Below are positions 12,753 through 17,329 of a stretch of 64,000 bases of DNA, one piece after another. The notes under the pieces were generated by a model. It saw nothing but the letters and a program-made list of their open reading frames with translations. It ran no database searches and was not told the origin of the DNA. The translations under genes were made by a program, and so were the position numbers. The stretch spans positions 1 to 64,000 of the forward strand of contig NZ_FNPB01000002.1 in the NCBI RefSeq assembly GCF_900107195.1. The letters are read 5' to 3'. Each line of letters opens with the position of its first letter. Position 1 is the stretch's first letter. This DNA comes from Halobellus clavatus. GTDB taxonomy: Archaea; Halobacteriota; Halobacteria; Halobacteriales; Haloferacaceae.

Positions 12753-13664
12753 TCAGACGTCGAGGCGCTGGAACTGGACGAGCGCAACCGCGAGCAGTCC
12801 GAGAGTCAGACACACACACAGCGCCAGCGAGACGACGGGGTCGACGTAGCCGACCAGTTCGAGCGACTCACCGAGCGCGTCCTGTCCCTGAGGGACCTCG
12901 TAGACGCCCGCCCAGAACCCGAGTTGGGCCTGCAGTTCGACCGGCAGCGGGTCCCCGAGCGTGCCGAGGAGGAGCGCGTAGACGTTGCCGAGGTGATAAC
13001 TGACGTCGATCATATAGAGGGAGTAGTCCTCGTAAATGCTCCCGGGAACGAGGCGAGCGACGAACAGGACGAAGAAGAGGGCGGGAACGACGGCAGTCAG
13101 CGCAGCGGTCTGCAGACGGTTCCGCGTGGCGACGCTAGCCGCCATACCGACGGCGTTGACGAACGCCGAAACGAAGAGCGCATACACCAGCGTCGCGGGG
13201 AGGACCGCGAACACGCCACCGCCGAGTGCTGCGGTACTGAACCCGCCCATCTGGTAGAGGAAGACGGCGACGAGCAGCAGGCTGGCAACCGCGACGGCAA
13301 ACAGGAACGTGACGTTCGCGAGGAAGATGGCGAGCAGCACCTCCCAGCGCCGGACGGGCTTGCTCAAGAGCAGATCGAGGGTGCCCCGGTCGGCTTCCGT
13401 CGCGAGCGTGAGCGCGACGAACAGCGCTCCGGCGACGAGGAGTCCGATGCCGACACCCCACAGCCACGTCAGCGGGACGTAGGCAGTGAGGAGTTCGAGT
13501 TCCTGTTCGGCCAGCGGGAGCTTCGCCACGGCGTCGGGAATCTCGTTGTTCCCGAAGCCGATCAGAAGGAACCACAGGACCGAGACGAAGACGAGGAGGT
13601 ACGTGAGGATCGCCTTCGGCTCCGAGAGGTCGCCCAGCGTCTTCCGGTAGATGGCGAGGAACAT
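12753..13664 (-). CDS. ABC-2 type permease (NosY-like)
   Basis: This 303-aa integral membrane protein has about six hydrophobic segments. The cytoplasmic N-terminus is MFLAIYRKTLGDLSEPKA, and the family signature ATEADRGTLDLLLSKPVRRWEVLLAI is typical of ABC-2/NosY permeases. It is the third gene of a unit with the ATPase just upstream (3 bases between) and the subtilase-NosD fusion before that. By analogy with NosDFY, it would be the membrane channel that couples ATP hydrolysis to a process outside the membrane. The transported substrate is not indicated by the sequence. Confidence 0.87.
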   Translation of the reverse strand: MFLAIYRKTLGDLSEPKAILTYLLVFVSVLWFLLIGFGNNEIPDAVAKLPLAEQELELLTAYVPLTWLWGVGIGLLVAGALFVALTLATEADRGTLDLLLSKPVRRWEVLLAIFLANVTFLFAVAVASLLLVAVFLYQMGGFSTAALGGGVFAVLPATLVYALFVSAFVNAVGMAASVATRNRLQTAALTAVVPALFFVLFVARLVPGSIYEDYSLYMIDVSYHLGNVYALLLGTLGDPLPVELQAQLGFWAGVYEVPQGQDALGESLELVGYVDPVVSLALCVCLTLGLLAVALVQFQRLDV

Positions 13665-13667
13665 CGG

Positions 13668-14588
13668 TCAGTCCTCCCCTCCGTCGTCGAGGATGTCGAG
13701 GAACCGCTCTTCGAGGCCGCCCTCGCGGTCCACCGAGTACAGGCCGAGCGTCGCGTCGCTGAGAGCCTGTGGAAGAGCGACGGCGAATCCCTCCGGATCG
13801 TCGGTCCGCACCACGACCGCGCCATCGTCGTTGCGGTCGACCTCGTCGACCGACTCGTGGGTCGCGAGCAGACGAGCCGCGCGGTCGTTGTCTGAGGCGT
13901 CGACGACGAACCGTTCGATCCCCGTATCGGAGAGCACCTCCGTGAGCGGTCCCGAGGTCACGACCTGTCCCTCCTTGAGGAAGGTGACCGTGTCGATGAA
14001 CTGCTCCAGTTCGGTGAGGACGTGGCTGCTCACGAAGATGGTCGTGCCCTCGTCGGTCAGGCTCTCCAGCGCGTCGATGATCATCGCCCGGCCCTCGGGG
14101 TCCAGCGCCGCCGTCGGTTCGTCGAGGATCAACAGTTCGGGATCACCGAGCATCGCCTGGCCGACCGCCAGCCGCCGCAACATCCCGCCGCTGTACCCCT
14201 CGACCGCCTGGTCCGCCGCGTCAGTGAGGTTCAGCCGCGTGAGCAACTCGTCGGCCCGCTCCCGCGTCGATCCGTCGACGGCCGAGAGTTCGCCCATATA
14301 GGTGAGATAGTCCCGGCCGGTCATCGACTCGTAGAACGCCGGGTCCTGCGGCGCGTAGCCGATTTTCTTCGTCGCTGCGCGGGTTCCCGCGGGTTCGCCG
14401 CCGATGTAGGCCTCGCCCCGGGTGGGGGTGACCAGCCCGGTGAGCATCTGCATCGTGGTGGTCTTGCCGGCGCCGTTGTGTCCGACGAAGCCGTGAATGT
14501 CGCCGCGGTCGACCGTCAGATCGACCTCCGTGACCGCCGTGACGTCGCCGTATTCCTTCGTCAGACCGCGCGTCTCGATCATCGTCAT
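13668..14588 (-). CDS. ABC transporter ATPase (NosF-like)
   Basis: This is a 306-aa ATP-binding subunit. The Walker A motif is GHNGAGKT at 36-43, the Q-loop lies in YAPQDPAFYESMTG, the signature is YSGGMLRRL, Walker B is LLILDEPTAALDP and the switch His is in VSSHVLTEL. A C-terminal domain of about 90 residues follows, as in ABC-2 exporter ATPases and NosF. The ATG at 14588 overlaps the stop codon of the upstream subtilase-NosD gene (ATGA), which indicates translational coupling. The long open frame upstream is antisense-type sequence in another frame of the protease gene. Confidence 0.9.
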   Translation of the reverse strand: MTMIETRGLTKEYGDVTAVTEVDLTVDRGDIHGFVGHNGAGKTTTMQMLTGLVTPTRGEAYIGGEPAGTRAATKKIGYAPQDPAFYESMTGRDYLTYMGELSAVDGSTRERADELLTRLNLTDAADQAVEGYSGGMLRRLAVGQAMLGDPELLILDEPTAALDPEGRAMIIDALESLTDEGTTIFVSSHVLTELEQFIDTVTFLKEGQVVTSGPLTEVLSDTGIERFVVDASDNDRAARLLATHESVDEVDRNDDGAVVVRTDDPEGFAVALPQALSDATLGLYSVDREGGLEERFLDILDDGGED

Positions 14589-17329
14589 CGTCGGGCCCCC
14601 AGTCGCCGCCGTCCGTAGGGGTAAAACAGCGCGCCGACGGCCCCCGCTGTCGCGGCGTACAACACGAGGTCGAGCATCGAGTTCGCCGGTGGCTCCCCGC
14701 CGGTCTGTCTCGGTTCGCCGTCGCCGCCGGTGATCGTCGCCGTTCCCTCGCTGTCGATCGGGGTCCCGACGCTCTCGAACGTGTTTCCCGTCACGGTGAC
14801 GTCCACGTCGAACAGTCGGTCGCCGGTGCGGCCGCTGAGGTAGACGCCCTGCTGCGCGTCTCGGATCGTACTGTCGCTGACGAGTCCGTTGACACTCAGC
14901 TCTCGGAACTCGACGGCGGTCTCGGTCGCCGAGATCCGACACTCCTCGACGACGAGACTCTTCGTGAACTGCGAGTACACGCCGTTCGTCCCCCCGGAGA
15001 GATCCAGATTCCGGAGGTGGACACCGTCGCCATCGAGGACGCTCACTGCGGCGGTGGCACCCTCGGCGACCACCTGGATGCCTCGGACCGTAGCGAAGTG
15101 GCTGGCGACCTGAAGCCCGAACGTCCGGTCGCCGGAACCACCGCTCGCGACCAGCGTCGGGTCGGAGTCGTCGGCGGCCACGAGCCTGATCGGTTTGTCG
15201 ACGACTAAGCCGGCCTGGTCGTCGCGAGTCTGATCGAAGATCGGGTTCCCGAATCGCGAGTCGGGCAGCGGTGATTCGAAGTCGGAGACCGCCACCTCCC
15301 ACCTGTCGCCGGCCAGTTCGACGGTCGTCTCGGGGGCGGCGATGTCGATGGCCCGCTGGATGTCTTCATCTGCAGACACTCGCAGGGGCCGCTCGTGGAC
15401 GTGGATCGGCGCTAGTTCGATGTCGGCGTTGCGCTCGCCGTCCGCCAGAGAGAGCTGCAGCGGAACGATGCCCCTTGCTCCCTCGTCGACGTCCAGTTCG
15501 ATCCGGAGCGTCGCTTCGTCTGCGATCTCTGTCGGTTCCTCGACCGTCGCCGGCTCGCCGTTGACCCGCACCGACACCGCCGAAGCGGGGACGAGGAACG
15601 GCGACTCGCGCGCGAGGATGGTGACGTACCCGGCGTGTGCCACCTCGAATTCCAGCGCGAGCGTGTCGCCGGGAGCCACGTGGGTCGGGAGCCGTCCCGC
15701 TCGCCGGACGTCCGGCCGACGTTCGGACTGCAAGCCGATTTCACGGCCGTCGCCGGGCGCGAGACGTCGAGTGACGGGGTCGTATCCCACCGCGTCGGCG
15801 GTGACGGTCTCCTCGCCGTCCGGGACCGACAGGGTGTATCGTCCCTGTTCGTCGGTCCGGGTGGTAGCGCCGGTCACGGCGGACACGGTCGCGCCGGCGA
15901 CGGGGACCCCGTCGGGATCGGTCACCGTTCCGGAGAGCGTTCGGTCGCGGCCCGCCACCTCGCCAGCGGCAGCGGCGGCGTCGACGATCCCGTGCCCGAA
16001 GTCACCGTTCGGATCGGGGTGCTCGGAGGGATCGCCCGGTTGCTCGGCGGTCTCTCTGAGGATCCTCCCGAGTTCTGCGGGCGAGCGGTCCCCGTCGAGA
16101 GAGCGCAGGAGCGCGATGACGCCCGAAACGTGGGGCGCGCTGTTGCTGGTCCCGTCTGTCCGGAGATGGCCGCCGTCGAACTCGTCGTTGTCGGGGACCG
16201 CTGTGAGGACGTCGACGCCCGGGGCCGTCGCGTCCGGGACGACGTACCGATCGGGCCACTCGTCGGGCACCGCATCACTCCGCCAGTACCGATCGGTTCG
16301 GATCTCGCCGCCGTTGCCGTTCTGGTACGGCTGCCGTTCACTGTCGACAGCCCCGGTCGTGAACGTGGAGTACAGAGAGCCCGGAGAGAGGTAGAGTTGC
16401 GGGCCGACAGCACCGGCGACCACGACAGTCCCGGCCGCGATGGCGTTCGCGAACGGTTCGATGGCTTCGTGTTCGAGCGGACCGAACTCGAAGCTCATCG
16501 AAACGACGTCGGCTCCGTTCTCGACCGCCCACTCCAGCGCGGCGAGCGTCGACGCGAATCGCCCGTCGGGGGCCTGCTTTGCGACGAGCAACTCCGCCTC
16601 GGGCGCGACGCCGATCTGCGTGCCGCTGGCGTCGCCGCCGGTCGCGAGGCTACTCATCCCGGTGCCGTGTCCATCCGGATCGTGCGGCTCACTGTCGACG
16701 CGCTGCCCCTCCGCGTCGAATTCGGCCCACGCAGTGAGGTCGATGTCGGGATGAGAGGCGTCGATACCGGTGTCGACGATGGCGATCCGCGTCCCCTCCC
16801 CGCGGGACCCGAACCGTTCCCAGACCGCGGGGACGTTCATCATCTCCAGTCCGTAGCTGACGCCGTCGTCCTGTGTCGTCTGCGCGACCGACTCACCGGT
16901 CGCGTCGAGGTCGGGGGGACGCCGGTCGGCGCCGGTGGCCGTCCGATGGATCCGATCGACGCCGTCGATGGCGGCTATGTCGGCGAACGACGCCACTTCG
17001 GTGTCGACGGTGACCAGCACCGCGTTCGCCACCCAGAACTGCCGTCGGAGCTCGACGCCCGGCGTCCTCTTCACGGAGTCGACGACGCGCTGTTGCGTCC
17101 GGGTGGCGTGCCGTCTGAGTGCCCCGACGCGCTCGTTGCGCGAGGGGAGTTCGCTGACGTCGTCGGCCGTGCCCGCCTCGACCCGGATGATACCCTCGAC
17201 TCGCCCGGCGCGCTCCACCAGTTCCGGATCGACTGCGCCTTGACTCACCTCGGCACAGCCGGCGACCGTCGCCGCGCCGGCAGCGGCGGAGAGGAACGCG
17301 CGCCTCCCCACGGCAGTTGTCTCGTCCAT
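14585..17329 (-). CDS. Secreted subtilase fused to a NosD-like beta-helix
   Basis: This is a 914-aa multidomain protein. Residues 1-25 look like a Tat lipoprotein signal (GRRAFLS, then VAGC with Cys25). An S8 peptidase domain spans about 170-455, with the triad Asp186 (IAIVDTGID), His221 (GHGTGM) and Ser395 (GTSNSAPH). Around 463-535 is a carboxypeptidase-regulatory-like Ig fold (GTVTDPDGVPVAGATV), and about 660-870 a right-handed beta-helix of NosD type (TVELAG..., FATVRGIQVV, VHLRNLDLSGGTNGVY, GVYLSG). A C-terminal membrane segment near 880-900 ends in a GRRRLGARR anchor. The oxyanion-hole Asn (usually AAGN) seems replaced by Ala307 in VVAGAVGP, so activity is uncertain. The start at 17329 follows a TATA element (GAGTTACCTATTGG) at the leaderless distance. 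It is the first gene of the unit with the ATPase and permease. Confidence 0.9.
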   Translation of the reverse strand: MDETTAVGRRAFLSAAAGAATVAGCAEVSQGAVDPELVERAGRVEGIIRVEAGTADDVSELPSRNERVGALRRHATRTQQRVVDSVKRTPGVELRRQFWVANAVLVTVDTEVASFADIAAIDGVDRIHRTATGADRRPPDLDATGESVAQTTQDDGVSYGLEMMNVPAVWERFGSRGEGTRIAIVDTGIDASHPDIDLTAWAEFDAEGQRVDSEPHDPDGHGTGMSSLATGGDASGTQIGVAPEAELLVAKQAPDGRFASTLAALEWAVENGADVVSMSFEFGPLEHEAIEPFANAIAAGTVVVAGAVGPQLYLSPGSLYSTFTTGAVDSERQPYQNGNGGEIRTDRYWRSDAVPDEWPDRYVVPDATAPGVDVLTAVPDNDEFDGGHLRTDGTSNSAPHVSGVIALLRSLDGDRSPAELGRILRETAEQPGDPSEHPDPNGDFGHGIVDAAAAAGEVAGRDRTLSGTVTDPDGVPVAGATVSAVTGATTRTDEQGRYTLSVPDGEETVTADAVGYDPVTRRLAPGDGREIGLQSERRPDVRRAGRLPTHVAPGDTLALEFEVAHAGYVTILARESPFLVPASAVSVRVNGEPATVEEPTEIADEATLRIELDVDEGARGIVPLQLSLADGERNADIELAPIHVHERPLRVSADEDIQRAIDIAAPETTVELAGDRWEVAVSDFESPLPDSRFGNPIFDQTRDDQAGLVVDKPIRLVAADDSDPTLVASGGSGDRTFGLQVASHFATVRGIQVVAEGATAAVSVLDGDGVHLRNLDLSGGTNGVYSQFTKSLVVEECRISATETAVEFRELSVNGLVSDSTIRDAQQGVYLSGRTGDRLFDVDVTVTGNTFESVGTPIDSEGTATITGGDGEPRQTGGEPPANSMLDLVLYAATAGAVGALFYPYGRRRLGARR

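Follow-up and report, generated by a model that had tools for sequence, protein, structure and literature searches.

A proposed archaeal ABC motor with exchangeable surface arms, and the altered subtilase arm of Halobellus clavatus

Results and discussion

We analysed a stretch of 64,000 nucleotides from Halobellus clavatus (positions 1 to 64,000 of contig NZ_FNPB01000002.1; hereafter "the window"), which carries a trio of adjacent genes encoding an exported, multidomain "arm" with a subtilase (peptidase S8) domain, an ATP-binding cassette (ABC) ATPase and an ABC-2 permease. We propose that the trio is one cell-surface ABC motor with an exchangeable docked arm, and that the S8 head of the window's arm is non-canonical, a reading to which we give slightly better than even chances. 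The rare cassette would then be one member of a broad set of archaeal ABC motors, on which membrane-anchored surface arms can be exchanged. More tentatively, and at a little less than even chances, we envisage an archaeal motor family into which surface arms of unrelated folds plug, with one docking tail in haloarchaea, the subtilase of the window serving as a head, non-canonical and either binding or regulated, which the motor loads or moves. The genes are:

12753-17329, minus strand: three-gene trio in the order arm, ATPase, permease; leftward and tightly linked
14585..17329, minus strand: arm, 914 amino acids; twin-arginine translocation (Tat) signal, prodomain-like region, S8 domain, carboxypeptidase-regulatory-like domain (CPD), immunoglobulin (Ig)-like sandwich, right-handed beta-helix and C-terminal anchor
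13668..14588, minus strand: ABC ATPase, 306 amino acids; Pfam ABC_tran 1e-29, and motifs
12753..13664, minus strand: ABC-2 permease of NosY fold, 303 amino acids; Pfam ABC2_membrane_2 7.4e-12, and model

The trio is a cassette

The arm is read from an ATG at 17329 to a stop at 14585 on the minus strand (914 amino acids), the ATPase start codon (14588-14586) shares bases with that stop in the sequence ATGA, and the permease begins with an ATG at 13664, three bases past the ATPase stop. This is the layout that an earlier examination of the window, made from its letters alone (the sequence-only reading), had described. Six genomes, that of the window included, carry this trio in an identical order; the other five are haloarchaeal and come from several families. 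Linked copies in G078 and G095 were found first, and those in G160, G255 (Halorubrum sp. LUM.57) and G482 through permease searches, the ATPase of G482 having been missed by the gene caller and recovered separately. The window arm gave matches in 69 of 118 relatives searched, most of them stand-alone secreted S8 proteins. The sequence-only reading would have been contradicted by homologues of the protease that lack a beta-helix and stand apart from the ABC genes; instead, all six ABC-linked S8 proteins join S8 to a CPD and a beta-helix (by Pfam or alignment), and all are followed by the ATPase and permease.

In about 11 of the 16 other congeners the EndA gene lies close to a NucS-like gene and the gap between them (mostly 200-600 bases, about 1 kb in two) has no trio; the three genes have thus been gained or lost together and behave as a single cassette. 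None of the 16 has a permease match. The recurrence in six genomes and these sites lacking the trio speak against a chance arrangement. The motor is rare: a search with the window permease matched 8 of 391 genomes of the class, and a profile 9 of 391. It was found in 3 of 170 genomes of the window's family and in 7 of 146 of the family of G160; the weakest profile matches look unrelated. The cassette is patchily distributed and has probably moved horizontally. Its G+C content (68%) is like that of its surroundings, and the repeats flanking it are only short ones of the kind expected by chance. The wider gaps belong to congeners G007 (L137) and G005 (L148), where the site may hold other inserts.

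The arm and its subtilase head

The features of the arm protein, all on the minus strand, are:

15989..16801: Peptidase_S8 domain, residues 177-447; Pfam 7.9e-30, PDB subtilisins down to 3.5e-20
16772-16774, 16667-16669 and 16145-16147: catalytic triad Asp186, His221 and Ser395; triad columns invariant in the arm alignment
16376..16432: oxyanion-hole segment AGTVVVAGAVGPQLYLSPG; lacks the Asn and has two residues fewer than its counterparts in relatives
15725..15949: CPD, residues 461-535; Pfam CarboxypepD_reg 5e-15, fold Z 12.3 to the SusC N-terminal extension (NTE) domain
15386..15721: Ig-like beta-sandwich, residues 537-648; model matches at Z 8-10
14702..15391: right-handed parallel beta-helix, residues 647-876; Pfam Beta_helix 9.5e-6, model Z 21.1 and 18.5
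14588..14683: C-terminal tail NSMLDLVLYAATAGAVGALFYPYGRRRLGARR, a membrane helix with a basic end; common to arms of unrelated fold

The sequence-only reading had an S8 peptidase continuing into a beta-helix and a C-terminal membrane anchor, and this architecture was borne out by the Pfam S8 match, the modelled helix (Z 18-21) and the C-terminal membrane helix; the CPD-like domain and Ig-like sandwich between S8 and helix go beyond it. That reading had also called the arm a Tat-lipoprotein. Both a Tat motif (GRRAFL) and a lipobox Cys are indeed present at the N-terminus, but none of the other S8 arms has this Cys, and the lipoprotein feature is therefore specific to the window copy.

By sequence the beta-helix is weak: Pfam Beta_helix is marginal (25.8 bits, cut-off 25.9) and Pfam NosD, at 0.0012, is below threshold (18.8 bits, cut-off 23.6). 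It is supported by the fold of the predicted model, in which VIA-align matched residues 647-877 to the beta-helix enzymes alginate lyase (6kfn, Z 21.1) and Pel9A (1ru4, Z 18.5), and residues 461-542 to CPD-like domains (9hfj, Z 12.3). A structure search with the arm had no NosD chain among the 50 matches listed, which is no evidence of a difference. The AlphaFold model has mostly fair to good predicted local distance difference test (pLDDT) scores over residues ~465-830; it was built with three sequences, the probable cause of its poor S8 region.

The catalytic Asp, His and Ser are kept in all six arm-linked S8 domains, but other parts of the active site are altered. In subtilisin, loss of Asn155 cuts activity by orders of magnitude. 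This oxyanion residue (PMC11593635) occurs in all 41 stand-alone S8 relatives and in three of the six arm-linked domains, a two-residue deletion having removed it from the copies of the window, G160 and G255. The same three copies read SFEFG in place of the SLG of the substrate cleft. Two further changes are common to all six arm-linked domains: the second His of HGTH, which 40 of 41 stand-alone relatives have, is replaced, and so is the residue after the catalytic Ser, which is Met or Phe in all 41. Fisher tests of the differences between arm-linked and stand-alone domains gave p values of 6.5e-7, 9e-8 and 0.0012, which ignore shared ancestry and overstate the strength of the contrast. The haloarchaeal stand-alone secreted proteases resemble the arm in having an S8 domain, often followed by a CPD. 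Unlike the window arm they retain GTS[M/F], the oxyanion Asn and, with one exception, the second His, and they have no match to the arm's beta-helix and no adjoining permease of this family.

Of the large domains, S8 is the one most strongly conserved within the window clade (72-73% identity; other parts 50-70%) and is therefore under selection for something. Judged from its residues, the window's head is probably a peptide- or protein-binding domain or a strongly attenuated subtilase, not an ordinary protease, although it may have residual protease activity. In keeping the subtilase fold without ordinary catalysis it would resemble subtilase pseudoproteases such as CspC, as outlined in PMC6636752; going by the same outline it differs from CspC in retaining the triad while losing the oxyanion Asn. 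An approximately unbiased (AU) test on the S8 tree did not reject one origin of the S8 arms (p 0.71), so the domain may have entered the motor system once.

The proposal of the sequence-only reading, that the arm carries its own protease and, coupled to a NosDFY-type motor, matures, releases or clears surface proteins, now looks doubtful, and we rate an active surface protease as unlikely. It would account for the intact triad, the retained prodomain-like region, the conservation of the domain and the oxyanion Asn of G078, G095 and G482. It sits poorly with the lost Asn and the SFEFG segment of the window clade, with the two substitutions found in every S8 arm, and with the use of the same motor by relatives that have no S8 domain.

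Other arms on the same motor share a tail

The same ATPase-permease pair is accompanied by arms of several kinds. In Natrarchaeobius chitinivorans two loci have arms that are beta-helix only (a Pel9A-like helix). G425 and the metagenome-assembled genome SW_6_65_15 have propeller arms that are DUF5122-like, a weak assignment resting on one sub-threshold Pfam match and none on the repeat. PQQ/FG-GAP propeller arms occur in G199, G150, Salinibaculum, Halorussus, Hadesarchaea, Aenigmatarchaeota and Lokiarchaeota. The order arm, ATPase, permease is fixed from Lokiarchaeota to Halobacteria. In a tree of the motor (concatenated ATPase and permease, rooted on Lokiarchaeota) the propeller arms are basal, and a single later group (93/88 support) unites the S8, helix and DUF5122-like arms. 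The four arm types need three changes on this tree, and none of 200 shuffles gave a number as low.

The Lokiarchaeal motors (L090, L091, L092, L094, L096) have very large propeller arms, of 1462-1767 amino acids, that carry a C-terminal membrane helix. In Salinibaculum litoreum (L078:4051-7045) the propeller arm is split over two frames by a frameshift or a sequencing error. A related small protein, possibly a regulator, is encoded beside three helix or DUF5122-like loci (L131:2798-3355, L073:6551-7144, L080:2029-2832) and not beside S8 arms.

The C-terminal tail is common to haloarchaeal arms whose folds are unrelated. A first profile, covering the C-terminal 40 residues of five S8 arms, was compared with 1878 control C-termini: eight non-S8 haloarchaeal arms (E 1e-14 to 7e-4) and the Hadesarchaeal arm (0.04) outranked every control (best 0.17). 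A second profile, made from nine arms and run against 15 whole genomes, gave seven matches with E below 1e-14, all of them arms; the next was the arm of G199 (0.003), and the remainder were above 0.2. The nine-arm profile includes sequences that it finds, and the S8-only profile is the independent test. Because arm folds are unrelated while tail and motor are shared, we read the tail as a docking element, probably a helix that sits on the motor.

If the genes were merely co-transcribed, the ABC pair would be a drug or lipid exporter of the ordinary kind that makes no contact with the arm, and the arm would be a protein anchored at the cell surface. Tail-anchored surface proteins are common in haloarchaea, and the contact of arm and motor is itself deduced. 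However, co-transcription would leave unexplained why haloarchaeal arms of unrelated fold have one tail in common that, across the 15 genomes, is confined to arms of this motor, and why the gene order is fixed across archaea; we consider it quite unlikely.

The motor and its relation to NosDFY

NosDFY is a well-resolved ABC-2-type motor that acts on an external beta-helix protein. The motifs of the window ATPase are intact on inspection (Walker A GHNGAGKTT, Q-loop, YSGGM signature, Walker B LLILDEP and H-loop). The permease model has a pLDDT of 91, and VIA-align placed it closest to six NosY entries (Z 18.9-21.5), followed by PmtD (17.5) and ABCG (~17). Foldseek also ranked NosY first, but with no match at E<=0.001. 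The fold comparison agrees with the NosY-like permease of the sequence-only reading, the best NosY match standing at Z 21.5 and the next family at 17.5.

The trio resembles NosDFY (PDB 7o0y and relatives) in combining an exported right-handed beta-helix protein with an ABC ATPase and an ABC-2 permease; the window arm adds the S8, CPD and Ig-like domains and a C-terminal membrane anchor. Against the NosD model TIGR04247 it scores 17.5 bits, where the cut-off is 300. The genome's real NosD also misses that cut-off (154.7 bits) and clearly passes Pfam NosD. It is encoded at a separate locus for NosL, a NosL-NosD fusion, NosF and NosY (L128:6921-11278, G000:C20). The trio would work like NosDFY, yet is not NosDFY: we place it outside because it misses the NosD cut-offs, its ATPase is not specifically NosF-like and the genome has this separate Nos locus. 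Thus, of the NosDFY-type machine that the sequence-only reading proposed, the three-part design with an exported beta-helix arm stands and membership in the NosDFY family proper does not. At the Nos locus, NosD is a 678-amino-acid protein with an N-terminal NosL domain (Pfam NosL 8.8e-13, NosD 2.1e-23), and no nosZ was seen within the 18 kb read.

Export of a peptide whose leader is cut by the S8 domain, as in lantibiotic systems and QhpE/QhpF, is improbable. It would fit a protease gene adjoining an ABC exporter and an ATPase that resembles DrrA and lantibiotic-protection ATPases, below cut-off. But among genes of at least 80 amino acids, the size range that the search covered, none besides the trio is common to the flanks of most loci. 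Moreover, arms with a protease are a minority on this motor, and the oxyanion hole is changed.

A true NosDFY machine delivering copper or sulfur to a cuproenzyme is very improbable despite the NosY-like permease fold and the beta-helix arm, given the separate Nos locus, the NosD score and the flanking genes, which encode a tRNA endonuclease, tryptophanyl-tRNA synthetase, NucS-like and haloacid dehalogenase (HAD) proteins and include, as the sequence-only reading had it, no nosL or nosZ (NosL sits at the other locus); a NosZ propeller search also found nothing, but all controls were equally silent and it says nothing on absence.

A motor with interchangeable tools

Under the reading we prefer, a motor with a docked, exchangeable arm, two ATPases and two NosY-like permeases would form an ATP-driven membrane motor by analogy with NosDFY, and the exported arm would dock on it through the conserved C-terminal membrane helix. 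ATP hydrolysis inside the cell could then move or load the arm outside, a mechanotransmission of the kind seen in NosDFY and FtsEX-EnvC. The motor would be a general platform to which evolution has fitted propeller, helix-only or S8-CPD-helix arms, the docking tail being kept in haloarchaea through the arm swaps. The S8 domain of the window would serve as a binding or strongly attenuated head. The analysis establishes the operon, its recurrence in six genomes, its cassette behaviour, the common tail, the exchange of arms, the NosY-like fold of the permease and the absence of the oxyanion Asn; docking, arm motion and the role of the head are the parts that we infer.

Several observations weigh against this reading. 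Docking through the tail is deduced from co-occurrence, and in the Aenigmatarchaeal and Lokiarchaeal arms the same tail motif is not recognisable and does not rise above controls. In a sequence profile search with the permease NosY was the sole PDB match, at a non-significant E of 7.9. The ATPase was previously taken to be NosF-like; among its paralogues in the same genome NosF ranks only fifth (139.8 bits, against 168.7 for the best), and that assignment is not upheld. The S8 domain was modelled with pLDDT below 50, so that its active site was judged by sequence, and the retention of the oxyanion Asn in the arm-linked copies of G078, G095 and G482 means that activity may differ between members.

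If the group is what it seems, a NosDFY-like design is distributed through the archaea, Lokiarchaeota included: the motor is kept, in haloarchaea together with a short tail, and the outside tool is replaceable. With the shared tail and the arm swaps, docking is open to direct test. One clade that has lost the oxyanion Asn, beside relatives that retain it, offers a natural comparison for the role of the subtilase head.

At the level of function the trio can be compared with YbbAP-TesA, as presented in PMC12646458: both pair an ABC motor with an external hydrolase, and mechanotransmission is thought to operate. By that account YbbAP-TesA is a Type VII transporter with an esterase, whereas the trio has an ABC-2/NosY-type permease and an anchored subtilase-like arm whose active site is altered. 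A subtilisin domain followed by a NosD module was reported in 2008 from Methanosarcina acetivorans (NP_616940.1; PMC2605481). The passages of that report considered here describe the domain pair alone, without an ABC operon or tail, and no Methanosarcina turned up when we scanned species genomes for the permease. We found no account of the three-gene unit in the literature searched.

PADLOC gave matches only to general subtilase and ATPase models, and we claim no role in defence. In Halapricum (L086) and QS_6_64_34 (L084/L133) a permease of this kind lies with a truncated ATPase and no arm; these are seemingly decayed copies of the cassette.

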